A stretch of DNA of 64,000 nt from Rubripirellula amarantea (GTDB lineage Bacteria > Planctomycetota > Planctomycetia > Pirellulales > Pirellulaceae): the NCBI RefSeq assembly GCF_007859865.1, contig NZ_SJPI01000001.1, positions 1,736,001 through 1,800,000 of the forward strand. The letters are read 5' to 3'. Position numbers and translations under genes: made by a program. Every line of letters begins with the position of its first letter. Positions within the stretch are counted from its first letter, which is position 1. The notes under the pieces were generated by a model. It was not told where the DNA came from, made no database searches, and saw nothing but the letters and a program-made list of their open reading frames with translations. Positions 39,947 through 57,120 of this stretch are shown here, piece after piece.

Positions 39947-40003
39947 CACGACGCACGTTGGCAAGTACCCCCGCCGTGTAACATCGTCGCCGATACGGGG
40001 CGA

Positions 40004-40029
40004 GGATACTGAGAGCGGATACTGAGAGC
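40004..40029. repeat. 13-bp tandem duplication (GGATACTGAGAGC x2)
   Basis: Two perfect adjacent copies in the 104-base gap between convergent gdhA and the small acidic gene. Most simply explained by slippage. Confidence 0.85.
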
Positions 40030-40050
40030 GAATCGTTTCAAGATCGTCGG

Positions 40051-40431
40051 CTAAGTGTTCTTGGGCTTAACCAAGCAGTGAAAGCCGACGCAGGGTTCTT
40101 CGTCCACACGTTCTTCTTCGGCTTGCGTCAGGATTTCCTGGACCTGCTTCATCCGTTGAGGACTCAAAGCAGCCGAGATCACACGTTGTTGCCCGTCAGG
40201 ACCAATCGCGACGGTGGTAATGACCGCAACCGTATCGTCATGCTGCAACGCAGCGATGATATGTTGACCGACCTGTTCTTCCGCGTTGCGGATTGTCGTC
40301 ACAAATTGAGCAATTTTGCCTTTATCGACGTCATTGGTGACCTCGCCAGGTTTGCTTGATGTCACCACCGGTTCGGCCGGTGCTTTGTTTTGGTCTTCAG
40401 AGTCACTGGGGTGTTCTTCGGATTCGTTCAT
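40051..40431 (-). CDS. Hypothetical protein
   Basis: 126 residues, unrecognised. The first 40 are charged and disordered (Glu, Asp, Pro, Lys); the remainder looks like a small alpha/beta fold (IAQFVTTIRNAEEQVGQHII, TVAVITTVAIGPDGQQRVI) ending in an acidic helix and GFHCLVKPK. It lies 19 bases downstream of the HugZ-like gene on the same strand, and probably shares its transcript. Confidence 0.62.
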   Translation of the reverse strand: MNESEEHPSDSEDQNKAPAEPVVTSSKPGEVTNDVDKGKIAQFVTTIRNAEEQVGQHIIAALQHDDTVAVITTVAIGPDGQQRVISAALSPQRMKQVQEILTQAEEERVDEEPCVGFHCLVKPKNT

Positions 40432-40450
40432 GTTAGATCTTAGCGGTGGT

Positions 40451-40903
40451 TCAAGTTACTTCGTTCAGTTGGTCGCCTGATACCGTAACAATTTTCCCAA
40501 AACCCGCGACTAGGTGAGCTTTGTGGACCATCATTTCGTAAAAGGCGAAGTCTCCGAAATCCGCGTACATCGCAGCCTCGGGATGACGCTGAAGGAAGGC
40601 GGTTCGAGCTACGTGATCAGCACCTCGAGCCAACTTTTGGACCGATCCTATCAACGTTGCTCTTGCTCCGGCGAGCGGATCACCATTCTCGCCACCGGGT
40701 GAAACCAATAGCAACGACACTCGATGGTCGTTTGCCAAATTTTTCGTGTGAACGGCCAGTCCCGATAGCAGCATGGCCATCTGGTCGGGCTTTATTCGAG
40801 CCACGGTTACGAGGGAAACGAACGGCGCACCACCATCGGCAATCGTGCCAAGGCTAGCCGCCAGAGCGGAATCCATCAGTGAGGAAATTTCAGTTGCTGA
40901 CAT
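40451..40903 (-). CDS. Pyridoxamine-phosphate-oxidase-fold (HugZ-like) flavoprotein
   Basis: A 150-residue split-barrel protein. The opening (ALAASLGTIADGGAPFVSLVTVA), the KNLANDHRVSLLL strand and RATLIGSVQKL match the HugZ/PNPOx-like family, whose members bind FMN or haem; HugZ itself degrades haem. The C-terminal HugZ domain is short or missing here and its diagnostic His cannot be confirmed. Its promoter faces the pse operon start across 135 bases. Confidence 0.78.
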   Translation of the reverse strand: MSATEISSLMDSALAASLGTIADGGAPFVSLVTVARIKPDQMAMLLSGLAVHTKNLANDHRVSLLLVSPGGENGDPLAGARATLIGSVQKLARGADHVARTAFLQRHPEAAMYADFGDFAFYEMMVHKAHLVAGFGKIVTVSGDQLNEVT

Positions 40904-41038
40904 GACATCATTCTACCGCACCCGAGGCCAGATTGCCCATGTTTTCGAAGCTTCCGTTTTTGCCGAGATTCGTATTGTTGGCTGAAGAACAGTTTTGCTA
41001 CTCTGCCAGCCCAGCAATCAACGCAGAAAGGACTCGCG

Positions 41039-42091
41039 ATGTCGATTTTGGATGGCAGCAATATTCTTATCACCGGTGGTACCGGCTCGTTTGGCAAGAA
41101 GTGCGCAAAGACGCTCTTAGATCAATGCAAGCCAAATCGCCTTGTGATTCTCAGTCGAGATGAGCAAAAGCACGTTGATATGGCTCGCAATGTCTTGCCA
41201 CCGTCCGAGTATCCCCAAGTGCGATACTTCGTCGGTGATGTGCGAGATCGTGGCCGACTCTCGCACGCATTGCGTGGGATCGACTACGTCATTCACGCCG
41301 CCGCGATGAAGCATGTCGATATCGCCGAATACAATCCTACCGAATGCATCAGCACCAACATTGGCGGTGCCGAGAACCTGATCAACGCTTGCATTGAAAG
41401 CAACGTCAAAAAGCTGGTGGCATTGTCCACCGATAAAGCTGCGGCTCCGGTGAACCTGTACGGTGCGACAAAACTTTGCAGCGACAAGCTCTTCGCCGCT
41501 GGCAATTCGCTCTCGGGTGCGTCGGGCACACGTTTCTGTGCGGTGCGCTATGGCAACGTGATTGGGTCTAACGGTTCCGTAATTCCGTTCTTCCAGAACA
41601 AGCGGCACGAAGGCGTATTGCCAATTACTAGTTACGACATGACGCGTTTCGTGATCACGCTCGAACAAGGCGTGGACTTTGTGCTCAAGGCTTTCGAGCG
41701 AATGATTGGTGGCGAAATTTTTGTCCCCAAGATTCCTAGCGTATCCATCGGCGACATTGCTGCTGCGGTTGCTCCGGAATGCGAGACCAAGGAAATCGGA
41801 ATTCGGCCTGGCGAGAAGATGCACGAATGCATGGTGCCCGAAGACGAGGCACGGCAAACGCTCGAATTCGATGATCACTACATCGTGCAACCATCGGCGC
41901 GAAGTTGGTGCAAGGAAGATCCCGCCTATGTCGCTCAAGGACGTCAGTGCGAACCGGGGTTCAGCTACAGCAGCGACAACAACAAGCATTGGTTGAGCGT
42001 GTTTGAACTGCGGGATCTGATCGCCAAGCACTGTCCCGATCCAAATTCTGTGGAAGTGGATTCGACTCAACAAAAACGCAAGGCAGCCTAG
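41039..42091 (+). CDS. pseB: UDP-N-acetylglucosamine 4,6-dehydratase (inverting)
   Basis: A 350-residue SDR enzyme for the first step of pseudaminic acid synthesis: it converts UDP-GlcNAc to UDP-2-acetamido-2,6-dideoxy-beta-L-arabino-hexos-4-ulose. NAD-binding motif GGTGSFG (13-19); catalytic T131-D132-K133 and Y141-x3-K145; AAAMKHVD at 87-94 is the family signature. Length is typical. AAAGGA precedes the ATG at 41039. First gene of the operon, with PseC 62 bases downstream. Confidence 0.95.
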   Translation: MSILDGSNILITGGTGSFGKKCAKTLLDQCKPNRLVILSRDEQKHVDMARNVLPPSEYPQVRYFVGDVRDRGRLSHALRGIDYVIHAAAMKHVDIAEYNPTECISTNIGGAENLINACIESNVKKLVALSTDKAAAPVNLYGATKLCSDKLFAAGNSLSGASGTRFCAVRYGNVIGSNGSVIPFFQNKRHEGVLPITSYDMTRFVITLEQGVDFVLKAFERMIGGEIFVPKIPSVSIGDIAAAVAPECETKEIGIRPGEKMHECMVPEDEARQTLEFDDHYIVQPSARSWCKEDPAYVAQGRQCEPGFSYSSDNNKHWLSVFELRDLIAKHCPDPNSVEVDSTQQKRKAA

Positions 42092-42153
42092 TCACGGCCG
42101 AACACCATCAGCATGTTCGATCGTGTTGCGTTCGGGATTGAGGAGACAACTTG

Positions 42154-43338
42154 GTGATTCCATACGGTAGACAATCGCTTAACGAAGATGACATCGCCGC
42201 CGTTACTCAGGTGCTGCGCGGCGACTTCCTGACACAAGGTCCCGCGATTGTTGAGTTTGAAACCAAGCTCGCCGATCGCTGTAATGCTGATCATTCGGTG
42301 GCCTGCAACTCTGGCACAGCCGCTCTTCATATGGCTTACCAATCGCTCGGGATAGGTCCGGGGGATGTGGTCGTTGTTCCAGCCAATACGTTTCTTGCGA
42401 CAGCGAACGCAGCGGTTTATCTAGGCGCGGACGTTCGCTTCTGTGATGTCGATCCCCAGTCTGGATTGATGACAGCCCAAACGCTTGAGCCGGTGCTAGA
42501 TTGTGACGTCTCGTTAGTCGTGCCCGTTCACTTTGCGGGAATGGCGTGCGACATGAAGGCCATTGCGGAATTGGTTCGCTGGACATCGCCCCGAGCGAAG
42601 ATTGTCGAGGATGCAAGTCACGCCATCGGTGCCCTGCACCGCGACGGTTCACCCGTAGGTTCGCTGGAATGGTCCGCGATGGCAACGTTCAGCTTTCATC
42701 CGGTCAAGCACATTGCCGCCGGCGAAGGTGGGGCCGTCACTGTCAACGATCCGGAACTGCTGGAAAAACTCCGTGGTTTTCGTTGTCACGGGATGACGAA
42801 AGATCCCACAAAATTGACAAAGCCCGAGGAAGGTCCGTGGTACTACGAAATGCACGACCTTGGGTTCAATTATCGAATCCCCGAAGCGTCCTGTGCATTG
42901 GCTTCGAGTCAGATGAATCGCCTAAACGATTTTCTAAATCGGCGACGCGCCATCGCCGAAGCGTATTTGTCGGCTTGGTCGACTTGCGACATTATCAAAT
43001 TGCCGAATTCCGAAGACTTGCATTATTCCGCTTGGCACTTGTTCTGCTTACATGTGGGGCTCAAAAACGATTCGCTCGATCGAGCGGATTGGATGTCGAT
43101 GTTGCAACAACGTGGGGTGGGTTCGCAAGTTCACTATTACCCCGTTTGCGACCAGCCGTATTACCGAAACCGCTACGGTTGTGACAAAACCCATTTTACG
43201 GGCGCTTTTGAGCACTACCGAACGGCACTCAGCGTGCCCATGTATCCGGCGATGTCAGATGCCCAGGTGCAGACCGTGATCGAATCCGTGTTGGATGTAG
43301 CTAGTCAGTCTAAACCAGTTGTCAGTCATGCTGCTTAA
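42154..43338 (+). CDS. pseC: UDP-4-amino-sugar transaminase of the pseudaminic pathway
   Basis: A 394-residue DegT/DnrJ/EryC1-type aminotransferase, second step of the pathway. The PLP lysine is K185 in FHPVKHIAAGEGG, the family signature. The GTG at 42154 gives the typical MIPYGRQ opening; a TTG at 42151 is one codon earlier. GAGGAG lies about eight bases before the GTG. The stop overlaps the Shine-Dalgarno of the next gene. Confidence 0.93.
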   Translation: MIPYGRQSLNEDDIAAVTQVLRGDFLTQGPAIVEFETKLADRCNADHSVACNSGTAALHMAYQSLGIGPGDVVVVPANTFLATANAAVYLGADVRFCDVDPQSGLMTAQTLEPVLDCDVSLVVPVHFAGMACDMKAIAELVRWTSPRAKIVEDASHAIGALHRDGSPVGSLEWSAMATFSFHPVKHIAAGEGGAVTVNDPELLEKLRGFRCHGMTKDPTKLTKPEEGPWYYEMHDLGFNYRIPEASCALASSQMNRLNDFLNRRRAIAEAYLSAWSTCDIIKLPNSEDLHYSAWHLFCLHVGLKNDSLDRADWMSMLQQRGVGSQVHYYPVCDQPYYRNRYGCDKTHFTGAFEHYRTALSVPMYPAMSDAQVQTVIESVLDVASQSKPVVSHAA

Positions 43339-43344
43339 AGGAGG
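43337..43344 (+). promoter_or_regulatory. Strong Shine-Dalgarno deciding the start of the CMP-transferase gene
   Basis: AAAGGAGG, seven bases before the GTG at 43352 and overlapping the pseC stop. It selects GTG 43352 over an in-frame TTG at 43319. Confidence 0.85.
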
Positions 43345-43351
43345 CGATCAA

Positions 43352-44116
43352 GTGAACAAGATCGTTGCGATTGTGCAAGCAAGAGTCGGTTCAAGCCGAT
43401 TGCCTGGCAAGACCTTGATGCAGCTAGGCGATCGAAGTGTTCTCGCACGCGTTCTACTTCGGTTAAGCCAGTGCAAGAAGGTCGATCAGATTGTGGTCGC
43501 CACAACCACCAATGGTGAAGACGATCGCATCATGAATGAAGCCGTCGCGTGTGGCTTTCAATGTTTTCGCGGCAGCGAGTCCGACGTGCTGTCGCGATAC
43601 TACGGTGCTGCGAAAATGGCTGAGGCGACTCATGTTATTCGCGTTACATCGGACTGCCCTTTCATCGACCCTGTCTTGATCGATCGGATGGTGGACCACT
43701 ATTTGGAACAAGCTCGCAATGTGGACTATCTGAGCAACGCGTTTGAACGAACGTTTCCGCACGGATTGGATACTGAAATATTTTCGGCATCTGCTCTCGC
43801 GATTGCTCATGCCCATGGCGCAAGCGCTGCGGAACGAGAACACGTGACGCCGTACATTTACTTGAATCCCGATCAATTCGAAGTCAGTAACTTCAGCAAC
43901 AGCGAGAACTTGTCGCATCATCGCTGGACATTGGACGAGGCTGATGATTGGGCATTCTTTGAAGCTGTTGTTGGTCACCTTCCAGATCCGCTCGTAACCA
44001 CCGATCAAGTGTTGGCGCTGCTAGAACGCGAGCCGCAGATTAGCGAAATCAACGCTAGGGTGCAGCAAAAGACGTTGGCCGACAGCAAGCCGATCAATCA
44101 GAAATTGGCAGGTTGA
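43352..44116 (+). CDS. SpsF-like cytidylyltransferase, probable CMP-pseudaminic acid synthetase
   Basis: A 254-residue nucleotidyltransferase. The N-terminus IVAIVQARVGSSRLPGKTL is the CTP-transferase (CTP_transf_3/SpsF) signature, and RVTSDCPFIDP marks the metal and sugar site. It sits where pseF sits in standard clusters and would activate the sugar with CMP. Its sequence is nearer to SpsF than to classical PseF/NeuA, so the symbol is left blank. The last residues precede pseG directly (TGA then ATG with no gap). Confidence 0.82.
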   Translation: MNKIVAIVQARVGSSRLPGKTLMQLGDRSVLARVLLRLSQCKKVDQIVVATTTNGEDDRIMNEAVACGFQCFRGSESDVLSRYYGAAKMAEATHVIRVTSDCPFIDPVLIDRMVDHYLEQARNVDYLSNAFERTFPHGLDTEIFSASALAIAHAHGASAAEREHVTPYIYLNPDQFEVSNFSNSENLSHHRWTLDEADDWAFFEAVVGHLPDPLVTTDQVLALLEREPQISEINARVQQKTLADSKPINQKLAG

Positions 44117-45358
44117 ATGCGAGTGCTTTTTCGAGCCGATGCGAGTTTGCGAATTGGCAGCGGGCATATTGCCCGCTGTTTGACGTTGGCGGATGCAATC
44201 ACTGCGCAGGGTGGTCAAGCAGATTTCGTATGCCGAGACCATCCCGGTCATCTCGCCACGTGGATCGAATCTCGCGGGTACGAGGTGTCGCTGTTAGAGA
44301 CCGAAACCTCGGCACATGAAAACGCTGCTCAGGATTCGCCTTACGCTTCATGGCTAGCCGCGTCGTCGATCGATGATGCTCGGCAAACGATCAACGCTTG
44401 CAAATCACGATCGTATGATTGGACCGTGGTGGATCACTATGCCATCGATTCGAGTTGGCACCACGAAATAAGGAAACACATTCCTAAGACGTTGGTCATC
44501 GACGACTTAGCAAATCGGTCCCACGAAGCAGACTTGCTGTTGGATCAAAATTATCACAAGCAACAACAGGGTCGCTACGAGTCGTGGGTGAACCAGGAAT
44601 GCGAGCTTTTGCTAGGGCCAAAGTTTTCGTTGCTTCGACCTGACTTCGCGAAGCACCGAGATGTGGCTAGTTCACATGTTGGAGCATCGAAATCCAAGGA
44701 AACGCAAACAACCAAAGGTCGGTTCAATCGAGGCTTCGCCGGCGAAGTTCGAGCAGATCAATCCCGATCGAACCAATTTTTGTCAAACGATGGATCGTCC
44801 GATCAATGCATGAACATCATGGTATTCATGGGCGGTATGGACGAACACAACGTAACCGCGAGGGTCATCAAGTCGTTGGAGTTTGCGGGGCTCGAGTCTA
44901 GCTCTCACCTTCATGTTGTGATTGGAAGTGCGAATCCGCATCGTGAACTTCTCAAGGCACAATGCGATCGCGTTCGCCAGAGAAACCACTTCGAAGTTAG
45001 CCTGCACATCCAGGTGTCTGAAATGGCGAAGCTGATGTCAAAGATGACTTGCATGATTGGCGCGGGTGGATCCAACACTTGGGAGCGTTGCTGTCTTGGG
45101 ATTCCTACTGCGGTTATCGCAGTGGCCGAGAACCAGGTCGATGTTGCAGTACAGCTAGATGAGACGGGCATTTCGCAATTCCTTGGGTTTCATCGAACGA
45201 TCCAAGACCGAGAGCTGCGAGAATCATTGCAAGCCTTTGTCGTTGATCGGAATTCTCACCACCGCATGCATCAACGAAGTCGATCGCTGGTGGATGGCTT
45301 AGGAGCCAACCGAATCGTCGGAATGATGAATCAACGCACAGCCAAAATTGCCGCCTAA
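44117..45358 (+). CDS. pseG: UDP-2,4-diacetamido-trideoxy-altropyranose hydrolase with large insertion
   Basis: A 413-residue GT-B-like hydrolase that removes UDP in the fourth step. The catalytic His is H17 in RIGSGHIARC; LVIDDLANR and the GAGGSNTWERCCLGIP loop are family motifs. Normal PseG proteins are about 280-350 residues. Here residues ~182-231, linking the two lobes, are a polar, low-complexity stretch (SKETQTTK, RSNQFLSNDGSSD) several dozen residues longer than usual. Some C-terminal extension also contributes. The ATG at 44117 abuts the upstream stop. Confidence 0.9.
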   Translation: MRVLFRADASLRIGSGHIARCLTLADAITAQGGQADFVCRDHPGHLATWIESRGYEVSLLETETSAHENAAQDSPYASWLAASSIDDARQTINACKSRSYDWTVVDHYAIDSSWHHEIRKHIPKTLVIDDLANRSHEADLLLDQNYHKQQQGRYESWVNQECELLLGPKFSLLRPDFAKHRDVASSHVGASKSKETQTTKGRFNRGFAGEVRADQSRSNQFLSNDGSSDQCMNIMVFMGGMDEHNVTARVIKSLEFAGLESSSHLHVVIGSANPHRELLKAQCDRVRQRNHFEVSLHIQVSEMAKLMSKMTCMIGAGGSNTWERCCLGIPTAVIAVAENQVDVAVQLDETGISQFLGFHRTIQDRELRESLQAFVVDRNSHHRMHQRSRSLVDGLGANRIVGMMNQRTAKIAA

Positions 45359-45368
45359 GGGGGAGAGC

Positions 45369-46451
45369 ATGACCAACAATGATGTCACCATCGCAGGCCG
45401 GTTGATCGGCACTGCTTTCGAACCCTTTGTGATTGCTGAGATGTCAGGCAACCACAATCAATCGCTCGATCGAGCACTTGCCATTGTCGATGCAGCAGCC
45501 GATGCGGGCGCGCACGCGATTAAGTTGCAAACTTATACGGCTGACACAATGACGTTGGACGTCGAGGGAAAAGGCTTCACGATCGATGCAGATGATAGTC
45601 TTTGGAAAGGACGCAAGCTGCACGATCTTTATGCCGAAGCACACACGCCATGGGATTGGCATCAAGCGATCTTCGACCGGGCAACTCAGCAGGGATTGAT
45701 TGCGTTCAGCTCTCCCTTTGACGATACCGCCGTTGACCTTCTTGAATCGCTCAACACGCCGGCGTATAAGATTGCTTCGTTTGAAATGACTCACCTTCCA
45801 TTGGTTCGGAAGGTTGCATCGACTGGCAAGCCGTTGATCATTTCAACCGGAATGGCCACGCTCGGCGAGATCGAACAAACTGTGCTGACCGCACGTCAGG
45901 CCGGCGCCAAGGAAATCGTCTTGCTTAAGTGTACGAGCACTTATCCGGCTTCGCCCGAGAACACTAACTTACGTACCATCCCGCATCTGCGTGAAGCCAT
46001 GGATGTTCAAGTAGGACTCTCTGATCACACAATGGGTGTCGGCGCATCGGTGGCTGCGGTCGCGTTCGGTGCCACGGTGATCGAGAAGCACTTCACACTG
46101 AGTCGTGCCGATGGTGGCGTTGATTCAACTTTCTCGCTTGAACCGAACGAACTACGCCAATTGGTCGTTGAAACCAAACGGGCGTGGCAAGCCATTGGTG
46201 GCGTTTCCTATGGACCCACGGGAGCCCAGGTCGATGCCATTCAGTATCGCCGTTCGATCTACCTTGCCGAGAATGTGGATAAAGGTTGTCGCATCGATGA
46301 TCGGCACATTCGCGTTATCCGTCCGGGTCACGGTTTGGCACCCAAGCACTTTGAAGAATTGATCGGTACCACTGCGACACGCGATTTGACCAAGGGCGAG
46401 CCCGCTCAATGGGGAATGTTCGCTCAACTACATCCTGCTTCATCACACTAG
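45369..46451 (+). CDS. pseI: Pseudaminic acid synthase
   Basis: A 360-residue NeuB-family enzyme condensing the hexose with phosphoenolpyruvate. The barrel (about 15-255) shows VIAEMSGNHNQ, HAIKLQTYT, YKIASFE and GLSDHT; a SAF/antifreeze-like domain (about 290-350) carries RRSIYLAENVDKG and RPGHGLAPK. The ATG at 45369 has GGGGGAG just upstream; it replaces an in-frame start seven codons earlier. Members with EMSGNHNQ group with PseI rather than sialic or legionaminic acid synthases. Confidence 0.93.
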   Translation: MTNNDVTIAGRLIGTAFEPFVIAEMSGNHNQSLDRALAIVDAAADAGAHAIKLQTYTADTMTLDVEGKGFTIDADDSLWKGRKLHDLYAEAHTPWDWHQAIFDRATQQGLIAFSSPFDDTAVDLLESLNTPAYKIASFEMTHLPLVRKVASTGKPLIISTGMATLGEIEQTVLTARQAGAKEIVLLKCTSTYPASPENTNLRTIPHLREAMDVQVGLSDHTMGVGASVAAVAFGATVIEKHFTLSRADGGVDSTFSLEPNELRQLVVETKRAWQAIGGVSYGPTGAQVDAIQYRRSIYLAENVDKGCRIDDRHIRVIRPGHGLAPKHFEELIGTTATRDLTKGEPAQWGMFAQLHPASSH

Positions 46452-46470
46452 TATTTCGATTGGACACAAT

Positions 46471-46728
46471 ATGACTACCAGAGACACGATCTTAGAAGTC
46501 ATTCACGAAGTCGCTGCAGAAAGCGAAAAGACGCTAGGCGATGATTTTGGTGATAACACCGTGCTGCTCGATAGCGGCTTGGATTCGCTCGACTTTGCAA
46601 TCATCGTTGCTCGACTCGAAGAGCGATTGGGTGAGGACCCATTTGCGGCAATGGACGAACCCGTCTATCCGAAAACACTTGGCGATTTCGTTGGGATATA
46701 CGACTCGTTTTTCGCGAACCAAGACTAA
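46471..46728 (+). CDS. Acyl carrier protein dedicated to the pse operon
   Basis: An 85-residue carrier protein. The phosphopantetheine site is S39 in GLDSLDF, followed by the recognition helix FAIIVARLEERLG. It is acidic, as expected. Its stop overlaps the start of the AMP-ligase gene (TAATG), which indicates that the two work together: the ligase probably loads an acyl group onto this protein. A carrier protein is not part of the core pseudaminic acid route. Confidence 0.92.
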   Translation: MTTRDTILEVIHEVAAESEKTLGDDFGDNTVLLDSGLDSLDFAIIVARLEERLGEDPFAAMDEPVYPKTLGDFVGIYDSFFANQD

Positions 46729-48080
46729 TGAAAGTTTCGAACACTGAAACCCTAACGCCTATGCGTCATCTGCTGGAACTCCTTAGTCGCGTTGCACCAC
46801 AGCGACCACTTTGGGTCAACGCATTTGATGCAGCGGTCACCGCTGAACAGATCGCGGAATCCATTTCGGTCGACGCGTCGATGGTTGGATCACGCATAGC
46901 ATTGATGATGCCAAACGGCGAAGACCTCGCACGAAGTTTGGTGGCACTCGATGGCGTTTGCGAGGCTATTCTGTTGCTCCCCAGCGGACTTGATGAGTCG
47001 CAGCGAGATTCGCTGATGCAGCGAGCAAGTATTGATCGCGTTGTCAGCCACTTGGCCGACATTCGCTGCAACGAAGAACTGGCAGCGAAGCCAAGCGATC
47101 GCGGCAGATTGACGCGATGGATATTGGCAACTTCGGGAACTACTGGAACTCCAAAGCTAGTTGAGCACACACTCGCGACGCTAACGCGCAGCGCGAGTTT
47201 CGACCTCACCATCGGTGCCCAACACACATGGTCCTCGCTTTACAACCTTACGGGATTCGCTGGATTGCAAGTGTTCTTGCAGGCGTGGTGTGGTGGATCG
47301 AAGTTTGTTTTGCACAATGACGATGCGACACTTGCCGAACGTGTTGAGCGGATGGCGCGATTGGGCGTGACAGCGATTTCGGCAACACCGACAATGTGGC
47401 GCAAGATCCTAATGGCGAGCGATGCTGCAAAATTACCGCTGCGGCGAATCACGTTGGGCGGCGAGATTGCGGATCAAAAGATTCTTGACGCTTTAGGTGC
47501 AGTGTTTCCAAACGCGAAGATCCGCCAGATCTATGCTTCAACCGAAGCCGGAGTTGGTTTCAGTGTCCGTGATGGAAAGGCTGGATTTCCGGCAAGCTAC
47601 TTGGACACGCCGCCGGCGGGAGTGGAGGTGCGAGTCGAAGATGGTCGGTTGTTCCTTCGCAATCCCGACACAAGCCAACGTTTCATCGGTAACGATGCAC
47701 GATTGCATCGCGAGGATGGATTCATTGACACGGGTGATCGTGTTGAGCGAGTTGACGATCGGTTTGAATTTCTTGGTCGAGCCAACGGGACGATCAATGT
47801 GGGTGGCAACAAAGTCCAACCCGAAGAAATCGAGCGATTCTTGCTATCTTGCGATGGAGTGGTCCAGGCTCGCGTGTATGCCAAGAAAAGCCCTTTCACG
47901 GGATCACTGGTTGCCGCTGATGTGGTAAGTAGTGGTCAACTCGAAAAAACAGAATTGCGCAAGCATTTGACCTCGCGGTGTCGCGCGTCGCTTGACACTC
48001 ATAAGGTCCCCGCGGTGATTCGATTGGTTGACGGCATTGAGACCAACGCAGCGGGCAAGGTACTCAGGAACGCCGGATGA
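46728..48080 (+). CDS. AMP-dependent acyl-ACP/CoA ligase
   Basis: A 450-residue ANL-superfamily ligase, shorter than typical acyl-CoA synthetases (about 500-550). The P-loop-like motif is TSGTTGTPK (135-143), the A8 hinge region gives GGNKVQPEEIE, and the A10 lysine is K444 in NAAGKVLR. It should adenylate a carboxylic acid and pass it to the carrier protein encoded just upstream. The acid cannot be predicted by eye. It overlaps the next gene in an ATGA. Confidence 0.88.
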   Translation: MKVSNTETLTPMRHLLELLSRVAPQRPLWVNAFDAAVTAEQIAESISVDASMVGSRIALMMPNGEDLARSLVALDGVCEAILLLPSGLDESQRDSLMQRASIDRVVSHLADIRCNEELAAKPSDRGRLTRWILATSGTTGTPKLVEHTLATLTRSASFDLTIGAQHTWSSLYNLTGFAGLQVFLQAWCGGSKFVLHNDDATLAERVERMARLGVTAISATPTMWRKILMASDAAKLPLRRITLGGEIADQKILDALGAVFPNAKIRQIYASTEAGVGFSVRDGKAGFPASYLDTPPAGVEVRVEDGRLFLRNPDTSQRFIGNDARLHREDGFIDTGDRVERVDDRFEFLGRANGTINVGGNKVQPEEIERFLLSCDGVVQARVYAKKSPFTGSLVAADVVSSGQLEKTELRKHLTSRCRASLDTHKVPAVIRLVDGIETNAAGKVLRNAG

Positions 48081-48823
48081 TTGAAACTGATAAAGCTAAG
48101 AATGTTCTGGTAACCGGTGGCACACGTGGGCTAGGGTTAGCCACGTGTGAACATCTAGCGCGCGCTGGTTACCGAGTGATCGCCAGCGGTCGTGGGATTA
48201 CTGATAGTTTGCAGACATTGATTGACGATCCGTCGCTTTCAGGTTTGGTGACGTTCCGTTCTCTCGATCTCGCTCAAACCGGCGAAATTCGCTTGTTCGT
48301 TCGGGACGTCGCAAAGGAATACGGGCCTTTGTATGGATTGGTCAACAATGCCGCGATTGGTCACGATGGCGTGCTAGCGACGATGCATGATTCCCAGATC
48401 GAAGAACTCATTCGCGTCAACGTGCTGGCTTCCATACTAATGGCCAAGTACGCATCACGATCCATGCTTGGACGGCGTGCCGGTCGCATTGTGAATGTGG
48501 CTTCCATTATCGCATCAACCGGATTCAGCGGACTTTCTGTTTACGCCGCGACAAAGTCGTCCATGATCGGGATGACGAAGAGTCTATCTCGTGAACTTGG
48601 CAAAGCTGGGATCACGGTCAACGCCGTCTCGCCGGGGTACATGGCCACCGATATGACATCAGGAATTGATGCGGCGAAACTAGAAACCATCACAAGGCGA
48701 AGTCCGTTAGGTCGACTGGCAAATGTTGATGAAGTGGCTGCTGCGATCGTGTACTTGATGAGCGAATCCGCAGCATCGATCACGGGAACCAATATCACCA
48801 TTGATGCGGGCAGCACGGCATGA
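48077..48823 (+). CDS. FabG-like short-chain dehydrogenase/reductase
   Basis: A 248-residue classical SDR. Cofactor motif GGTRGLG (14-20), NNAA at 90-93, catalytic S143, Y156 and K160; the C-terminal GTNITIDAGSTA matches 3-oxoacyl-ACP reductases. Together with the carrier protein and ligase it probably reduces a carrier-bound 3-oxoacyl group; a sugar reductase is the alternative. ATGA overlaps join it to both neighbours. Confidence 0.88.
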   Translation: MIETDKAKNVLVTGGTRGLGLATCEHLARAGYRVIASGRGITDSLQTLIDDPSLSGLVTFRSLDLAQTGEIRLFVRDVAKEYGPLYGLVNNAAIGHDGVLATMHDSQIEELIRVNVLASILMAKYASRSMLGRRAGRIVNVASIIASTGFSGLSVYAATKSSMIGMTKSLSRELGKAGITVNAVSPGYMATDMTSGIDAAKLETITRRSPLGRLANVDEVAAAIVYLMSESAASITGTNITIDAGSTA

Positions 48824-49656
48824 GTGCCGTCGAATTAACGCTGGAAGTGCTTCGAGATTTACCCTGCAGCGGACCCGTTCTGGTTCACGCTGACTTGATG
48901 CGGGCTCGTTCATTCGTAGGTCCAGTTACATCGCGACAAGCCATGCTAGCGGCGCAGGTGGAAGTCTTGCGGGAAGCCTGCGGATCACGTCCGTTTTGGT
49001 CGCCATGTTTCAACTACGACTTCTGCAAGACAGGCGAGGTAGATTTGCGTAGTGCCAAGACCCAAGTCGGGCCACTCGGTGAGTACCTCCGCACGCATTC
49101 GGACTTTTGGCGTAGCACTGATCCAGTGTTCTCCATTTGCGGTGACGGACGAGTAATCGAGGACAACACTTCAAGCACTATCGAAGCCTTCGGGCCGCTT
49201 AGTGGTCTTGCTCAACTTTACTCACGAGGCGGCGCGGTTTTGTTCTACGGTGCGGCATTGTCTTCAGCCACGATTCTGCATTTTGCTGAAACGCTGAGCG
49301 GCGGTCCCGTCTATCGGTACGACAAAGTCTTCTCGGGAACGATGGTCACTTTGGATGGTGTGAATCGAGCCATCGACTACATCTATCATGTTCGGCCAAT
49401 GGGCTGGTCCCTCGATTATGACTGGACTCGAATCCGAAACGACCTGATTGATCAGAACCTGATTCGCCAACAAACGTTTCGTGGCGAAGAGGTTGCGATG
49501 GCGTGTGTGGTCGCCGACTTAGTGGACTACTGGGTGGAACGACTCAGCGACGACCCACTCTATTTTCTTGACAGTGACACGCGAGCGAAGGTCGAGTCTT
49601 TGAAATTGTCTCGGGGTCAACGTGTCAGTAGGAACGAATTTGAGCAGGCAACATGA
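48820..49656 (+). CDS. AAC(3)-fold N-acyltransferase (sugar-modifying)
   Basis: A 278-residue member of the antibiotic N-acetyltransferase (AAC(3)) family. Family landmarks: VLVHADL near the N-terminus, GPLGEYLR, the RSTDPVFS segment and FYGAALSSATILHFAE with the conserved H154. Chromosomal members inside sugar operons acylate amino sugars, not drugs. Here it follows an acyl carrier protein, ligase and reductase, and is the natural candidate to transfer the acyl group to the amine of the nonulosonic acid or its precursor. Confidence 0.85.
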   Translation: MSAVELTLEVLRDLPCSGPVLVHADLMRARSFVGPVTSRQAMLAAQVEVLREACGSRPFWSPCFNYDFCKTGEVDLRSAKTQVGPLGEYLRTHSDFWRSTDPVFSICGDGRVIEDNTSSTIEAFGPLSGLAQLYSRGGAVLFYGAALSSATILHFAETLSGGPVYRYDKVFSGTMVTLDGVNRAIDYIYHVRPMGWSLDYDWTRIRNDLIDQNLIRQQTFRGEEVAMACVVADLVDYWVERLSDDPLYFLDSDTRAKVESLKLSRGQRVSRNEFEQAT

Positions 49657-50957
49657 ACGACACATTCCCCTGCGTTGGCGACGATATGTATTCGCTTGCG
49701 GAACGGCTATTTCCTATCAACCGCAGTTTGACTGGCGACGGAGTTCGGCAGTCATTGGGGATCTTGAGTGAATTAGTGACTGGGCTGCAAGTCCACGAAG
49801 TGCCAACGGGCACGTCGTGCTTTGATTGGTCGGTACCAAAAGAGTGGAAGATTCGTGAGGGTTGGATCGAGGACCCCAATGGTGATCGCATTGCCGATTT
49901 CGCGAACTGCAATCTGCATGTGGTAGGGTATTCGACGCCGGTCGACACGGTCATGGGATTGGATGAACTGCAGCAGCATCTCTATTCATTGCCCGAACAA
50001 CCCGACGCGATTCCCTATGTCACGTCTTACTACAAAGAGCGTTGGGGATTCTGCCTCACCGAGAATCAACGACGTTCGTTGCAGCCGGGCAACTACCGAG
50101 TTCGCATTGATAGCGAGCTGTTTGACGGTTCGTTGACATACGGTGAGTTAAAGTTGGCGGGTGATTCCGAGAAAGAGATTTTCTTGTCGACCTATGTTTG
50201 TCATCCATCGATGGCAAACAATGAATTGTCGGGGCCATGTGTGACCATTCATTTGGCCAAATGGTTGCAGGCCATGACGCAACGACGCTATAGCTACCGA
50301 ATTGTTTTCATTCCTGAGACGATTGGGTCCATCGTTTATCTCAGTCGCCATCACGAGGCGATGCGAAAAAACGTTGTTGCTGGATTCAACGTGTCATGCG
50401 TTGGAGATGATCGAGTCTATTCGTATCTTCCGTCGCGAGATGGTAATACGCTTTCTGATCGCGTGGCCAAGCATGTGTTGCACCACACCGACCCTGATTA
50501 TTGTCGCTATACCTTTCTGGATCGCGGTAGCGACGAACGGCAATACTGTAGCCCCGGGATAGATTTGCCTGTTGCGACAGTGATGCGAAGCAAATACGGC
50601 ATGTACCCTGAATACCACACTTCGCACGACAACCTGGATGTCATTTCGCCATCAGGTTTACAAGGTGCCTTCAACGCAATTGCCGAGTGCATTCGTTGCA
50701 TCGAGCAGGACTGCTATCCCAAGTCGGTAATGCCATGTGAACCGCAGTTAGGAAGGCGTGGCTTGTATCCCGATCTTAGCGTGAAAGGCGGTGCGGATTC
50801 GGTGCGAGAGATGATGAATATGATCGCCTACTGCGACGGCAAAAAGAGTCTTTTGGAGATTGCTGAAATCATCGACGCCCCGATGAGCCGGTTGACGACG
50901 TACGTCAAGAAATTGGTCAATGCCAGCGTGATCGAAACGCAATCGGAGAAGTTTTAG
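49653..50957 (+). CDS. DUF4910 aminopeptidase-like protein with C-terminal winged helix
   Basis: A 434-residue protein of the DUF4910/DUF2172 type that is common in nonulosonic acid and polysaccharide clusters. The opening AERLFPINRSLTGDGVRQSL and the M28-like core are recognisable, with likely zinc ligands in CHPSMANNELSGP and SRHHEA and in the C-terminal YHTSHDNLD. The last ~70 residues look like a small DNA- or substrate-binding helical domain. A role in trimming or transferring an acyl or sugar group is possible; the reaction is not known. ATGA overlap with the upstream gene. Confidence 0.85.
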   Translation: MNDTFPCVGDDMYSLAERLFPINRSLTGDGVRQSLGILSELVTGLQVHEVPTGTSCFDWSVPKEWKIREGWIEDPNGDRIADFANCNLHVVGYSTPVDTVMGLDELQQHLYSLPEQPDAIPYVTSYYKERWGFCLTENQRRSLQPGNYRVRIDSELFDGSLTYGELKLAGDSEKEIFLSTYVCHPSMANNELSGPCVTIHLAKWLQAMTQRRYSYRIVFIPETIGSIVYLSRHHEAMRKNVVAGFNVSCVGDDRVYSYLPSRDGNTLSDRVAKHVLHHTDPDYCRYTFLDRGSDERQYCSPGIDLPVATVMRSKYGMYPEYHTSHDNLDVISPSGLQGAFNAIAECIRCIEQDCYPKSVMPCEPQLGRRGLYPDLSVKGGADSVREMMNMIAYCDGKKSLLEIAEIIDAPMSRLTTYVKKLVNASVIETQSEKF

Positions 50958-50958
50958 A

Positions 50959-51876
50959 ATGACAAGTCTGCGAGAACTCAAACAGCTCTATGAACAAGGC
51001 CAAAACATTTGCGAGTACCTGCGTCGTGAGTTGAATGTTTCAACCAATACGCCCGAGATCATTGAGATAGCTTACGACTTGCAAACCGGCAGCTACACAC
51101 GTGCCATGTCCGACCCGGTAATCATCAAGCATAAAACGGCGTACACCGCCACGATTGCCGGTCAAATACTCAAGCACTGCCCGACGCTCAGTTCCGTGAT
51201 GGAAGCCGGGGTAGGTGAAGCAACAACGCTAAGTGGAGTGATTAGTCTGTTGCGAATGGAAGCGGGCCACGAAAGCCTGCAAGGATACGGGTTCGATCTA
51301 AGTTGGTCTCGCTTGAGCTATGCACGGCGTTGGCTTACTGAAAACAACATCGATCAGGTCGATCTATGCTGTGGTGATTTGTTGAACATTCCATTTTGCG
51401 ACAATTCAATTGATGTGGTCTATACGTCCCATTCGGTTGAGCCCAACGGAGGCAACGAAGAACCAATCCTGCGAGAGCTTTATCGGGTCGCTCGCAAGTA
51501 TGTCATTCTTTGTGAACCGGGTTATGAACTAGGGGACGATGTCGCGAAAGCTCGCATGGATCACCATGGTTATTGCAAGAACTTACCAGGGATCAGCCGC
51601 GAACTCGGCTACGACGTTGTGGATCATCATCTAATTGATTGTAGTGCGATTCCTCAGAATCCATCTGCAATCACGGTGATCCGCAAACCTCAAGCGGACT
51701 CTGGGGTTTCCGATAGCGTTTTCGCTTGTCCTAAGACACGTACTCCGCTGGTTGCGGGCGAAGGCGTACTCTACAGCCCGGAATCCTTAACGGCGTATCC
51801 CATTGTTGGCGGCATCCCGTGTTTGCGATCCGAAAACGGCATCTTAGCTAGTCGCTATGAAGAGGTCGCGAAGTGA
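50959..51876 (+). CDS. SAM methyltransferase with C-terminal Trm112-like segment
   Basis: A 305-residue methyltransferase. The SAM loop is VMEAGVGEATTLSG (about 80-93), with GFDLSWSR and CCGDLLNIPF after it. The last ~60 residues (CPKTRTPLV, YPIVGGIPCL) resemble a Trm112/YcaR-like zinc-less small domain. It starts one base after the upstream stop and its own stop overlaps the next start (GTGA). It probably methylates the sugar or the acyl group. Confidence 0.82.
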   Translation: MTSLRELKQLYEQGQNICEYLRRELNVSTNTPEIIEIAYDLQTGSYTRAMSDPVIIKHKTAYTATIAGQILKHCPTLSSVMEAGVGEATTLSGVISLLRMEAGHESLQGYGFDLSWSRLSYARRWLTENNIDQVDLCCGDLLNIPFCDNSIDVVYTSHSVEPNGGNEEPILRELYRVARKYVILCEPGYELGDDVAKARMDHHGYCKNLPGISRELGYDVVDHHLIDCSAIPQNPSAITVIRKPQADSGVSDSVFACPKTRTPLVAGEGVLYSPESLTAYPIVGGIPCLRSENGILASRYEEVAK

Positions 51877-52436
51877 GTGGGCAACCTCGAGTAACAATCG
51901 TTCCGATCAACGAAGAAGAACACGCAAAGGTGTTGTTCGAGTGGCGCAAGTCCCCCGAGATTTCACGCTTCATGTACACTCGCGATCCGATCGTTTGGGA
52001 TTCACACATCGCTTGGATACGGTCGTTGCCGCAAAACCAATCTCGCAAAGATTGCGTGATTCTGCTTGATGGGGTTCCCGCTGGAACGGTCAATCTAACC
52101 GAAATCGACAACACGCATCGACGTTGCAGCTTTGGAATGTATGTTGCTTTGCCGCTCGCACGGGTGCAAGGAGTCGGTGCCGCCGCGGAAGTGTTGGTGC
52201 TTGAGCTTGCGTTTGATGACTTAAAGATGCACAAAGTTTCCTGCGAAGTTTTTGCCAGCAACCCGGCCCCGGTCGCTATGCACCAACGCATGGGATTCAA
52301 GATTGAAGGTACCTTTCGCGACCACGTATTCGATGATGGTGACTGGATTGATGTTGTGCGAATGTCCGTACTTGAAAACGAATGGGCATCGAAAGCTGCC
52401 ATGATGCGGGGCCTGCTTTCGCGATTGATTGGTTAG
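51873..52436 (+). CDS. pseH: UDP-4-amino-sugar N-acetyltransferase
   Basis: A 187-residue GNAT enzyme that acetylates the C4 amine made by PseC. The WRKSPEISRFMYT opening and the FDDLKMHKVSCEVFASNPAPVAMHQRMGFKIEGTFRDH region match PseH-type proteins. The start is a GTG at 51873 overlapping the upstream stop. Finding it far from pseB-G-I, after the acyl genes, suggests the operon was extended in the middle. Confidence 0.88.
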   Translation: MSGQPRVTIVPINEEEHAKVLFEWRKSPEISRFMYTRDPIVWDSHIAWIRSLPQNQSRKDCVILLDGVPAGTVNLTEIDNTHRRCSFGMYVALPLARVQGVGAAAEVLVLELAFDDLKMHKVSCEVFASNPAPVAMHQRMGFKIEGTFRDHVFDDGDWIDVVRMSVLENEWASKAAMMRGLLSRLIG

Positions 52437-52540
52437 GTTCAGTGTCCTGTGGGAGGCGGTCTTTGTTCATGAGGTTGTCTCGTCAAAAGCTGCCGCGTTA
52501 CACTTTCTTTATATTCTCTACTTCCCTTTGAGCGAACTCG

Positions 52541-53167
52541 ATGAGCGAACACAAGACGGAACAAGAAGCCTTTTGGGCGGGCGATTTTGGCAATCAATAC
52601 ATCAGTCGGAACGAATCCGCCCAGTTTATCGCCAACAATACAGCCGTTTTTCGCGACATCATCTCACGCACTCATGGGGTGAAGTCGGTGATTGAGTTGG
52701 GGCCTAACGTGGGAATGAATTTGCATGCCTTAAGGCATTTGATTCCGGATGTCGATCTATCGGCGGTTGAGATCAATTCAAAGGCAGCCGAGCAATTGCG
52801 ACAAACCGAGTCTTTGGATGTCACTGTCCATGAGACTTCGATTCTAGAATTTGAACCCACTCGTACTTACGATTTGACGTTCACCAAAGGTGTGTTGATT
52901 CACATCAACCCCGACGAAGTCAATCGGGTTTACGACCTGCTCTACCAAGCATCCCATCGGTATGTGCTTGTCGCAGAGTACTACAACCCAACACCGGTAG
53001 CGATTCCCTATCGAGGGCATGACGATCGATTGTTTAAGCGTGACTTCGCTGGCGACATGCTTGATCGTTTCAGCGATTTACAATTGATCGACTATAAGTT
53101 TGTGTACCGTCGCGATCCCAACTTTCCCCACGATGACGTTACGTGGTTCTTGATGGAAAAGCGTTAG
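52541..53167 (+). CDS. Pseudaminic acid biosynthesis-associated methylase
   Basis: A 208-residue SAM methyltransferase of the TIGR03587-like family that recurs in pseudaminic clusters. Diagnostic features: EAFWAGDFGNQYISRN at the start, VIELGPNVGMNLHALRHL as SAM loop, and KGVLIHINPDEV. Last gene of the operon; its stop lies two bases from the stop of the convergent giant gene. A 104-base gap before it may hold a separate promoter. Confidence 0.9.
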   Translation: MSEHKTEQEAFWAGDFGNQYISRNESAQFIANNTAVFRDIISRTHGVKSVIELGPNVGMNLHALRHLIPDVDLSAVEINSKAAEQLRQTESLDVTVHETSILEFEPTRTYDLTFTKGVLIHINPDEVNRVYDLLYQASHRYVLVAEYYNPTPVAIPYRGHDDRLFKRDFAGDMLDRFSDLQLIDYKFVYRRDPNFPHDDVTWFLMEKR

Positions 53168-53169
53168 GA

Positions 53170-56100
53170 TTAGACAAACTGCCATTTGCCGACGGCGCCG
53201 GTGACAAGGTTGGCGTAGTAGACCGATCCATCGGGGCCTTGTTGGATATCAACGATCCACTGGGCACCGGTGGTGAACAATTGCTGGTCAGTCAGATTTC
53301 CTTGGTCATCAATGCGGAACAAGCGAACGGTCCCTTCGTACGCGTTGTTGTAAAAGAATGAGTCGTCGAAGTAATCACCCAGGTCACTGTCGTTGATGTA
53401 TCCGCCCAATACGATTGCGTCACCGGCAGCACCGTGAGTGATCGCGACTACCGGAGGCGTGGCGTCAGCGGTGGCGTAGAAAGCTGCAGCTCCCGAGAGA
53501 CCGCTGTACTGTGGCGTCGGAGTGTTCACGCCCTGACGACCTTCAAAATAGGGCCAGCCAAAGTTGGCTGCCGCACCGCCGGTGTTGATCTCTTCATAGC
53601 TGGTCCAGCCTGTGTCGCCGATCAATAGTTGACCAGAAGTCGGGTCAACGGTGATACGCCAAGGGTTTCTTGCACCAAGCTGATAGACTTTCGAAGCGTT
53701 GGCATTGGGGTCACCCGTGTAGAACGGATTGTCCCATAGGCCCTGCCCGGTGATGGGGTCAATCCGTAGGATCTTACCTGACAAACTGTTGACGTCTTGA
53801 ACGCGAAGAGCGCGGCCGTCGACGCGAGTGTATCCCGCACCATCACCGATAGAAACGAATAGGTTTCCATCAAGTCCGAAGGCCAACGAGCCTACGGTGT
53901 GACTTTGTGAATCACTGTTGATGAAGTCTCGGATGTAGTTGCCGCTGGAATCTACGCCGCCCTGAGGCACGCTGTAGTTGACCGAGCTGTCAACAAAACC
54001 GTTGAAGTTGTTCCAGGTGCTGTTGGTGCCCAGCAGAATGGTTTCGCTACCTTGGACAATCGACGTGTAACCTGTCGACGCATCCAGAGTGACTCGCATC
54101 AAACGCCCAGCTCGATTGCCCGCACCGTCAGGCCCGGCGAGTCCGCTATAGTTGTAGACTTCGGGCGGATCGTAGGTGTAAAGCAAGTACAGGTATGGAT
54201 TGTTTTCAAGGTCAGGGTGAATCTTGAAGTCGATCAATCCGCGGTCGTTGTAGTCGTTGACTTGTCCGGAGATGTCAATGACGGTCTGGACGGAACCGCC
54301 GTCGCGTTGAACCTTTACGACGCCAACCTTTTCAGCAATGTAGAAGTTTCGTCCATCGGGTGACCAATCCAACGCCAGCGGTTGATTAAGTCCGGTGATC
54401 ACGTCTTGTTTGACAAGGGAACCATCTGGAAACTGAGGTCGAACAGGCGGATCGAAAGCAGGCGGATCGAGGCTGAATTGGAAGTTGCGAATGATGTGTT
54501 GGTTGGTGTCTCGGAAATTCGCGCCGGTAAATCCAACGTATGCCTGAGACCCAACAAAGTTGTCGAGTTCGATTGTTGTCACCAAGCTCGCATAGGTTGG
54601 CTTCGCTGGGCTATCGGAGATGAACACCGCAAGTTTGTCACTGTCGCCGTTGTAGTCCACCCATGCATAGTATTCACGAGAGTCATTGAGCGTGTACGGA
54701 GACGTGACGGTTGCGACGGGGTTCTGAACGGATCCGTTGGTCAACACCGAAATCTCGCGTGCAGCGGTGTCCCACGAATTGCGTTTGGTATCGAACTCAA
54801 TCGCAATGCTGTTCTCGATCAACTCATATCCCAACCAATACGCATCGGGACCGATCGCATCCGAGCCTGCCGCTGAGTTCTGCAGTGTGAACGTTAGACC
54901 GGATGAACCGTTCACCCCAGCACCACCGCCGATGAAGAACTGAAACGAGGCTTGGAAGGACGTGTTATCGCCAATTGAAATGGGTGTCTCGTAGAAGACT
55001 GAACTCACTTGGCGTTGTCCAACACCAGTAAGGTTGAGGTTGCCGTTGGATGCCCATGCGACGCCGTTGAGGTTCAATCCGTCCGTGTTGGAAAAGTTCG
55101 CATAGTTTGGCAGTGGCGTATCGTCATCGATGATGGTGACGGTAGAAGTACGCGGAGCCAACAACGTCGTGCCAATAGGATTGTCAAGAATCACACTAAA
55201 GGTTTCGGTGCCTTCGCCAAAGGAATCATTGATCAGATTGATGGTGATCGTTCGGCTTTGTTGTCCATCGGCAAAGTTGAGGGTGCCGCTTTGTGCTACG
55301 TAATCTTGACCAGCGATGGCGGATTCATCGGATGTGTAGTACTGAACTGAAACGGCACCGTCACTGCCACCGATTCGATCGACTTGAATCGTGATCGAGT
55401 TAACGCTTTCGCTTGGATTCGATGGGCTCGGTTGAATGGAGAAGCGACCTGGGTTGTTGCCGGTGTTCCCGCCGTCATCAGCAAGGAATTGGAAGTAACC
55501 GTTGCTATGCAAGGTTTCGCTTTGACGGAAACCCGGCTGGACGCCATCGGAAGCTAGCCAAGTACCCGTCGAATAGGTCGTCGATGCTTCCGTTTGGTAG
55601 GTCTGGCCGTCAACGCGAATGTAGTCGACGTTCAGATTTCGGTCGAAACCACCGGGCGTGTAACTGTCGTTAATAAAGGCAACCCGCACGCGGTCGGCAG
55701 TGACATCACCACTAAACTGATAGGAGAATACCTGGCCACTTGTCGAAATGTTATTGAAAGTCTGAACCACGTTTTCATCGATCAACAACTGAGCCGATTC
55801 GCTGCCTGTTGTGCCAGAGAGGGCGATGTCAATCGTCGATCCATTGTTTCCGCCACCGGACGCGCCGGCTGAGGAGAATTGAAAGTAACCATTCGCGTTA
55901 AGGTATTCCGTTTGTAAGTTACCAGAGGTGATTCCTTGGCCTTCAATCCAAGATCCCTCTGAGAACACGGCTGGATTCTCGGCTTCGTAGGTCACTCCGT
56001 CGATCTCAATACGGTCGACTCGCAAGTTGCGGTCGATGCCGCTTGCGGGATCATACAGATCATTGACGAAGTTGATGCGAACGTCATCGGCTGATACGCC

Positions 56101-56907: not shown

Positions 56908-57120
56908 CAATGCACCATGCGGAAAATCGGTGGAAAACGAACTCCGCAGTGTAATTCGTACACGTCAATGTGCAAATTTAACGTATCCGTTTCAACCGTT
57001 TTCGTCGGCTAGAAAAACCGGTTGTACGGCCTGTGCCAGTTGTGCTTGCGTTGCCCCGGAAACTTTCGTGAGCCGAAAGTGCTGGCCTGCCGAGGCGAAT
57101 CGAATTCTCGCGATTACCGC

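Follow-up and report, generated by a model that had tools for sequence, protein, structure and literature searches.

What are genes for activating, carrying and transferring an acyl group doing in the middle of a pseudaminic acid (Pse) operon? The question is raised by a window of 64,000 nucleotides from the planctomycete Rubripirellula amarantea (contig NZ_SJPI01000001.1, positions 1,736,001 to 1,800,000 of the forward strand; coordinates below count from the first letter of this window), in which a carrier protein, an AMP-forming ligase, a FabG-like short-chain dehydrogenase/reductase (SDR) and an AAC(3)-fold protein are encoded after pseI at 46471-49656. An original prediction, made from the DNA letters, had taken these four genes for one acylation module of the operon. 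Our analysis points to a kit of two parts, in which a carrier-ligase-SDR trio would supply an acyl group and a core pair, the AAC(3) protein and the DUF4910 protein encoded next to it, would exchange the N-acetyl group at C5 of pseudaminic acid for the group held on the carrier; we give this account of the seemingly complete pse operon an even chance of being correct. That the kit replaces one acyl decoration of pseudaminic acid by a custom acyl group is probable, and kits of this type, compared across bacteria, seem to combine a common transfer core with interchangeable acyl suppliers.

All four genes lie exactly where they had been placed, Pfam confirms their families, and a script found every active-site residue that had been named. 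The carrier (46471-46728; PP-binding, 1.3e-6) holds its phosphopantetheine site S39 in the motif GLDSLD, the ligase (46728-48080; AMP-binding, 9.7e-22, and AMP-binding_C, 4.3e-10), a predicted carrier loader, holds K444 and a TSGTTG motif at residue 135, the SDR (48077-48823; adh_short_C2, 4.2e-51) has S143, Y156 and K160, and the AAC(3)-fold putative N-acyltransferase (48820-49656; Antibiotic_NAT, 2.1e-17) has H154. As predicted, the four frames are joined by short overlaps, of 1, 4 and 4 bases. The next gene, for a DUF2172/DUF4910/HTH_47 protein (49653-50957; DUF4910, 1.9e-105), overlaps the AAC(3) frame by another 4 bases, and here the predicted boundary at 49656 falls in the wrong place, leaving the recurrent partner of AAC(3) outside the module. 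The genes belong to a single plus-strand run of 13, from PseB to a second methyltransferase (41039-53167), and the claimed pseudaminic acid context is borne out by PseB, PseC, PseG and PseI, each above its curated NCBIfam cut-off. Close packing continues past DUF4910, with a methyltransferase gene after a gap of 1 base and then a GNAT acetyltransferase gene with an overlap of 4 bases.

The pairing of AAC(3) with DUF4910 recurs far beyond this operon. A DUF4910 alignment scan of contigs from 84,980 species genomes found at least 568 relatives, and we examined the best 80, ranked by similarity to the clade of the window protein and often lying on short contigs. Within 6 kb of DUF4910, an AAC(3) gene (at least 25 bits in this count, at least 18 bits in the motif survey described below) is present in 38 of the 80 loci, and it is the same-strand neighbour in 33, spread over 8 phyla. 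The hidden Markov models used here were built iteratively from the window and three further loci of the phylum (L068-L070; L and G numbers denote loci and genomes), so that counts of carriers and GNAT genes are lower bounds. Outside the window, the combination of ligase, SDR, AAC(3) and DUF4910 was met in 10 loci, two each in Brevibacillus, Aeromonas and Campylobacteria and one each in Roseateles, Prochlorococcus, a Pelagibacteraceae metagenome-assembled genome (MAG) and a Cloacimonadota MAG, and 8 of these 10 also hold PseI or PseB plus PseC. The comparison of planctomycete pseI neighbourhoods that had been proposed as a check was made with 29 other loci lacking DUF4910 nearby (L075-L103, several on short contigs; four of the genomes, G205, G159, G361 and G382, have DUF4910 elsewhere, and G040 was excluded): within about 11 kb, contigs permitting, none has an AAC(3), ligase, carrier or FkbH gene, and one has an SDR. 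Because parts of it recur elsewhere while these 29 control loci, but for the one SDR, lack them, the architecture of the window goes beyond chance.

The trio has a distribution of its own. Searched against 117 relatives at E<=1e-15, the window ligase has matches in 29 genomes including its own, and the loci analysed are the best 19 from the 28 others, with ligases 29-47% identical to it. Beside these ligases, which come from the same family and order, an SDR was found in 16 of 19 cases, while 12 loci have a carrier (two as fusions) and 12 the whole trio; PseI and DUF4910, present in the window, occur in none of the 19. The neighbours are instead bacillosamine-type (PglC/PglD/PglE-like) genes, on either strand, in 11 loci (Bac_transf-like in 7, PglD-like in 9, DegT in 8; examples checked by Pfam). 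In two loci of one genus (L217, L219) a PglD_N/hexapeptide acyltransferase continues in frame into a carrier-like domain with the motif GLDSLD, and in L210 an Antibiotic_NAT gene adjoins the trio. As a phmmer query the window carrier recovered 11 of the carriers at 21-86 bits, the twelfth coming through Pfam; the seeds of our carrier model were the window carrier and carriers from ten loci among those it went on to recover, for which phmmer is the independent support. In a quick ligase tree the window ligase groups on a starred branch (99) with 18 of the 19, L209 being nearest at 46%, while the nineteenth (L227) pairs with the ligase of the Cloacimonadota locus L114, which adjoins AAC(3)-DUF4910, as sister to this clade. 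Given the neighbouring genes and the PglD-carrier fusions, the trio may serve amino-sugar N-acylation more widely.

These distributions divide the original prediction. Its trio as acyl supply is supported by the PglD-carrier fusions and its AAC(3) as a sugar N-acyltransferase by the recurrent linkage to DUF4910, but a pse-specific unit of all four genes is not supported. It had turned on whether the genes recur mostly without pse genes, and this is so for the trio and not so for the combination of ligase, SDR, AAC(3) and DUF4910. We also rejected the block as one heritable unit: a search of 392 genomes of the phylum with the ligase of the window (E<=1e-30) gave its own block only, apart from two matches in G071 within frames of 9551 and 3848 residues, taken as large synthases. 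That search alone would have misled, because the sample of 117 relatives gave 28 more genomes. Window-like AAC(3) proteins (E<=1e-15) are found in three of the 117, the host itself, G205 and G456, the latter two also having the AAC(3)-DUF4910 pair.

Swapping of the supply is apparent in the class Campylobacteria, to which one of our loci (L179, a Helicobacteraceae MAG) belongs and in which 57 of 249 genomes have DUF4910. We took 20 of these 57, chosen among the higher-scoring, with some near contig ends and certain others passed over. An AAC(3) gene is on the 20-kb stretch in all 20 and is the same-strand neighbour in 13, PseB and PseC are present in 15, and most of L265-L282 show the order PseB-PseC-DUF4910-AAC(3). 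FkbH is found in 8 loci and a ligase in 14, 3 of these having both, and 1 locus has neither; TIGR01686 was above its cut-off in three of three FkbH examples checked. An FkbH-type supply delivers glyceryl. Of 59 AAC(3)-DUF4910 pairs, 37 could be labelled clearly as FkbH or ligase and 22 were left out. On the AAC(3) tree the label changes 7 times, at least 4 of them forced by starred branches, against a mean of 11.0 for shuffled labels and with as few changes in 3 of 500 shuffles; on the DUF4910 tree it changes 10 times, and 168-178 of 500 shuffles are as low. Both trees were built quickly, contain several long branches and are not corrected for relatedness. Since the label clusters on the AAC(3) tree and not on that of DUF4910, it may be AAC(3) that reads the new acyl group, a conclusion for which the trees are support, not proof.

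Other arrangements were met around DUF4910. In the phylum locus L069 (13490-19859; G040) it adjoins AAC(3), an AMP-ligase, an alpha/beta hydrolase and MutL/methylaspartate mutase E-like genes, possibly a glutamate-mutase-derived acyl supply; in this genome some 11.6 kb separate DUF4910 from pseI, and an MptE-like (MAF-type) gene lies in that interval. In L070 (6151-10710; G159), downstream of an open reading frame read by eye as FliD, the order is FkbH, carrier, a MaoC-AAC(3) fusion that joins a dehydratase domain to the transferase, and DUF4910. Eight of the 80 loci (L106, L129, L141, L147, L162, L166, L167, L169) have FkbH, then a frame of 490-620 residues with an SDR match, then an Asn-type DUF4910 (see below), with no AAC(3), the gene order differing in L166 and L167.

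In the core pathway the N-acetyl group derived from UDP-GlcNAc sits at C2 of the UDP-sugar and becomes that at C5 of pseudaminic acid, and the acetyl group added by PseH is at C7. In the kit that we propose, the ligase would activate an acid and load it onto the dedicated carrier, and the SDR would adjust the oxidation state of the bound acyl group. DUF4910 would then help to release the amine from its UDP-GlcNAc-derived acetyl group, and AAC(3) would move the carrier-bound group onto it. The GNAT protein would perform the ordinary PseH acetylation at C7, and the methyltransferase at 50959-51876 may O-methylate the new acyl group. We assign GNAT to C7 because it is kept beside AAC(3) in 13 of the 19 loci with both PseI and AAC(3), as in the window, compared with 8 of 17 PseI loci without AAC(3), and its retention argues that AAC(3) is not simply a replacement for PseH.

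The nearest precedent comes from Campylobacter jejuni, where Cj1295, an aminopeptidase-like protein of 435 residues encoded next to Pse genes, is required for 5-N-(2,3-di-O-methylglyceroyl) Pse; the mutant loses the di-O-methylglyceroyl group on N5, and its authors proposed cleavage of the C5 acetamido group by Cj1295 (PMC3068675; published work is cited here and below from the available parts of each paper). Cj1295 lies in the flagellin glycosylation region Cj1293-Cj1302, together with the Pse genes Cj1293 and Cj1294, the N-acetyltransferase Cj1296/7 and the fkbH-domain gene Cj1302 (PMC3068675, PMC7099621), and in strain 12664, in which cj1302 is a pseudogene, the N5 group is lacking (PMC7099621). 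From these descriptions of the C. jejuni locus, and from the gene order in most of L265-L282, we infer that Cj1295 is a DUF4910 protein and Cj1296/7 of AAC(3) type, so that the likeness to the window consists of this pair beside pse genes. The supplies differ, being of FkbH type in C. jejuni and an AMP-ligase with an SDR in the window, where 40000-54000 holds no FkbH match.

The chemistry of DUF4910 is a weak point in this account. With its DUF2172 insert and HTH_47 domain the window protein has the architecture of its family, sharing all three domains with CA_C2195 (PDB 3k9t; E 2e-108), and the functions of both are unproven. The zinc ligands of 3k9t are His189, Asp195 and His324 (PMC4000134), whereas the window protein keeps the two histidines, as His184 and His322, and has Asn190 in place of Asp195, leaving the ligand set incomplete; Glu191, Glu222 and Asp294 are also present. 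Among 97 readable motifs (4 more were unreadable) 81 have Asn and 16 Asp. All 43 readable members near an AAC(3) gene carry Asn, as do 38 without AAC(3) nearby, while none of the 16 Asp members has AAC(3) nearby; the 20 Campylobacteria loci likewise have Asn throughout. The letter changes three times on the 59-member tree, whose alignment kept the motif columns. With Asn at the zinc-ligand position in the window and in the members near AAC(3), plain M28-type hydrolysis is doubtful. The authors of 3k9t likewise describe the M28 catalytic residues as replaced, predict a trimer and a winged helix-turn-helix interface, and note that DUF4910 adjoins sugar genes across ten clades including planctomycetes, CA_C2195 itself being close to a gene for an acyl carrier protein (PMC4000134).

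Several observations weigh against a carrier-fed exchange at C5 by this pair. The Asn and the replaced M28 residues make the sequence-based case for DUF4910 as a deacylase a weak one. PseI, found within 11 kb of DUF4910 in 38 of the 80 loci, is equally common with AAC(3) (19 of 38) and without it (19 of 42), the four classes being both genes (19 loci), AAC(3) only (19), PseI only (19) and neither (23); in 30 of the 80, many on short contigs, AAC(3), FkbH and ligase are all lacking within 11 kb. In the phylum, where 19 of the 392 genomes have DUF4910, AAC(3) lies near it in just 4, namely the host and those of L068, L069 and L070. The pair in G205, of the same family as the host, has neither the trio nor a pse gene on its 20-kb stretch, and this genome lacks a ligase match at E<=1e-30 and is missing from the matches listed for the 117 relatives; the pair can thus do without a supply of the window type. 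A GNAT gene was not found in 6 of the 19 loci with PseI and AAC(3), and it does occur with PseI where AAC(3) is absent. For 7 of the 19 relatives' ligases no adjacent carrier was detected, so a CoA thioester could take its place; the fused carrier domains are unmatched by Pfam PP-binding at 1e-3, and their assignment draws on the motif and on a phmmer score of 29 bits each against the window carrier. Strains 12664 and 11168 are also distinguished by other genes, and the N5 group is missing from strain 12661 as well (PMC7099621). Finally, the sequence of the ligase does not reveal its substrate, and its best PDB relatives, MenE-type ligases, are no guide.

The same residues lead to an alternative in which DUF4910 is a non-hydrolytic partner of AAC(3), a scaffold or a site for carrier docking, another enzyme frees the C5 amine and the remaining steps are as above. 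We hold this to be a serious possibility that nonetheless falls short of even: it would account for the replaced M28 residues, for Asn in all members near AAC(3) and for the trimer and interface predicted from 3k9t, but the window protein retains His184, Glu191, Glu222, Asp294 and His322, and Cj1295 is required for the modification in C. jejuni. A more distant reading follows the original prediction in taking N-3-hydroxybutyryl as its precedent, with acetoacetate loaded and reduced by the SDR, the product placed on the UDP-sugar at its C4 amine, which corresponds to C7 of the acid, AAC(3) replacing PseH and DUF4910 incidental. The catalytic set of the SDR is complete and Pse5Ac7-3-hydroxybutyryl exists, and 3-hydroxybutyryl is a possible but unproven choice for the acyl group; published accounts, however, attribute this sugar to PseG/PseH-type genes in altered form (psaGH or Psb4/Psb5) and, in their available parts, mention neither a carrier nor a ligase nor an SDR, which makes Cj1295 the nearer precedent. 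As GNAT is retained beside AAC(3) and the latter recurs with DUF4910, we regard this route as unlikely.

It is more improbable still that the trio came into the operon by chance insertion and that its product, a fatty acyl or some other acyl group, is destined for another molecule such as a lipid or a separate polysaccharide. The absence of PseI from all 19 relatives' ligase loci would fit, as would the reading of similar Aeromonas and enterobacterial genes, with luxC/luxE, as fatty acid synthesis (PMC7874193, PMC4875605). Yet the trio frames overlap on into AAC(3), no acyl-reductase family is among the Pfam matches of the 13 operon proteins, and AMP-ligases, mostly of other clades, accompany AAC(3)-DUF4910 in Brevibacillus, Roseateles, Vibrio, the Cloacimonadota MAG and Campylobacteria. 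That the operon has captured an aminoglycoside resistance gene, as the Antibiotic_NAT fold might bring to mind, is hardly conceivable and was rejected on score and gene context: AAC(3) reaches 44.3 bits against the 270-bit cut-off of the NCBIfam AAC_3 resistance model, and it is partnered with DUF4910 across phyla.

The pieces of the kit, taken separately, are already known. The pse islands of 98 Aeromonas strains contain carrier, reductase and AMP-synthetase genes (PMC7874193), and those of 71-72 enterobacterial strains contain Acp, FabG and CaiC (PMC4875605), in both cases read as fatty acid synthesis. The Aeromonas island shares carrier, SDR and ligase with the window, and our Aeromonas loci L146 and L158 also have FkbH-ACP-AAC(3)-DUF4910; it differs in a ligase of another clade, in luxC/luxE within the island (PMC7874193) and in gene order. 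In Brevibacillus (L123, L125) and Roseateles (L151), AAC(3), DUF4910, carrier, SDR and ligase are present as in the window but follow one another in the order just given. Pse genes of the same strand precede them in L123 and L125, whereas in L151 they lie on the opposite strand, about 2.3 kb beyond the ligase. The Brevibacillus, Roseateles and Aeromonas ligases, at 22-26% identity and in a separate clade, were rejected as close kin of the window ligase. As an arithmetic lead only, the 376-Da sugar of Aeromonas AH-3 exceeds mono-acetyl Pse by about 102.02 (376.14 - 274.12), which fits O-methylglyceroyl.

In the literature searched, where subscription papers were thinly covered and sources available in part, we found no statement of an AAC(3)-DUF4910 core with swappable supplies, nor of the carrier-PglD fusions, the Asn subtype or a bacillosamine-type trio in a pse operon. 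We would venture, tentatively and with some doubt, that the window is one case of a widespread and programmable N-acyl exchange machine, in which AAC(3) and Asn-type DUF4910 would replace the N-acetyl group of Pse and related amino sugars, carrier-based suppliers (FkbH-glyceryl, AMP-ligase/SDR, possibly glutamate mutase/ligase) would set the new group, and DUF4910 would open C5 by a chemistry other than that of M28, since its zinc ligand is lost. A carrier-fed, swappable kit with this recurrent core would invite a direct biochemical test of DUF4910 chemistry, and acyl variants of a surface sugar may become predictable from gene neighbourhoods; in the window, an acyl supply of bacillosamine type is joined to a pseudaminic acid operon.

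The remaining genes of the operon, in a host genome of 6.9 Mb in 9 contigs, are all on the plus strand. Ahead of the kit stand PseB, an inverting UDP-GlcNAc 4,6-dehydratase (41039-42091; TIGR03589, 482 bits, cut-off 408), the aminotransferase PseC (42151-43338; TIGR03588, 450 bits, cut-off 424), a PseF-like CMP transferase (43349-44116; CTP_transf_3, 3.2e-30 in Pfam, with no NCBIfam model above its cut-off), the UDP-sugar hydrolase PseG (44117-45358; TIGR03590, 280 bits, cut-off 154) and the pseudaminic acid synthase PseI (45369-46451, start taken at ATG; TIGR03586, 487 bits, cut-off 340). The match of PseG to its model falls into two stretches, perhaps owing to a lineage insert, and the best of them ends at residue 187. 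Behind the kit come the class I methyltransferase already mentioned, with a weak Trm112-like tail (50959-51876; Methyltransf_11, 3.3e-8), the GNAT acetyltransferase and PseH candidate (51873-52436; Acetyltransf_3, 4.9e-16, Pfam only) and the second methyltransferase (52541-53167; Methyltransf_25, 2.8e-4, under Pfam's cut-off). Because phmmer relatives of the last are present in 6 of the 29 planctomycete pse loci without the acyl kit (L076, L080, L084, L089, L094, L098), it resembles a general pse accessory in planctomycetes.

The host genome has no match to the MptE-like MAF transferase family (PF01973), a candidate pathway-specific attachment enzyme, and three matches to flagellin. A Planc_extracel match that narrowly exceeds its cut-off agrees with the planctomycete origin. 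Beside the operon, on the minus strand (53173-56910), lies a gene for a protein of 1246 residues with DUF4347, two CBM60 stretches and Calx-beta, legume-lectin and glucose/sorbosone dehydrogenase domains, and further away on the same strand (7461-10067) an animal haem peroxidase domain is combined with a dockerin and a planctomycete extracellular motif.

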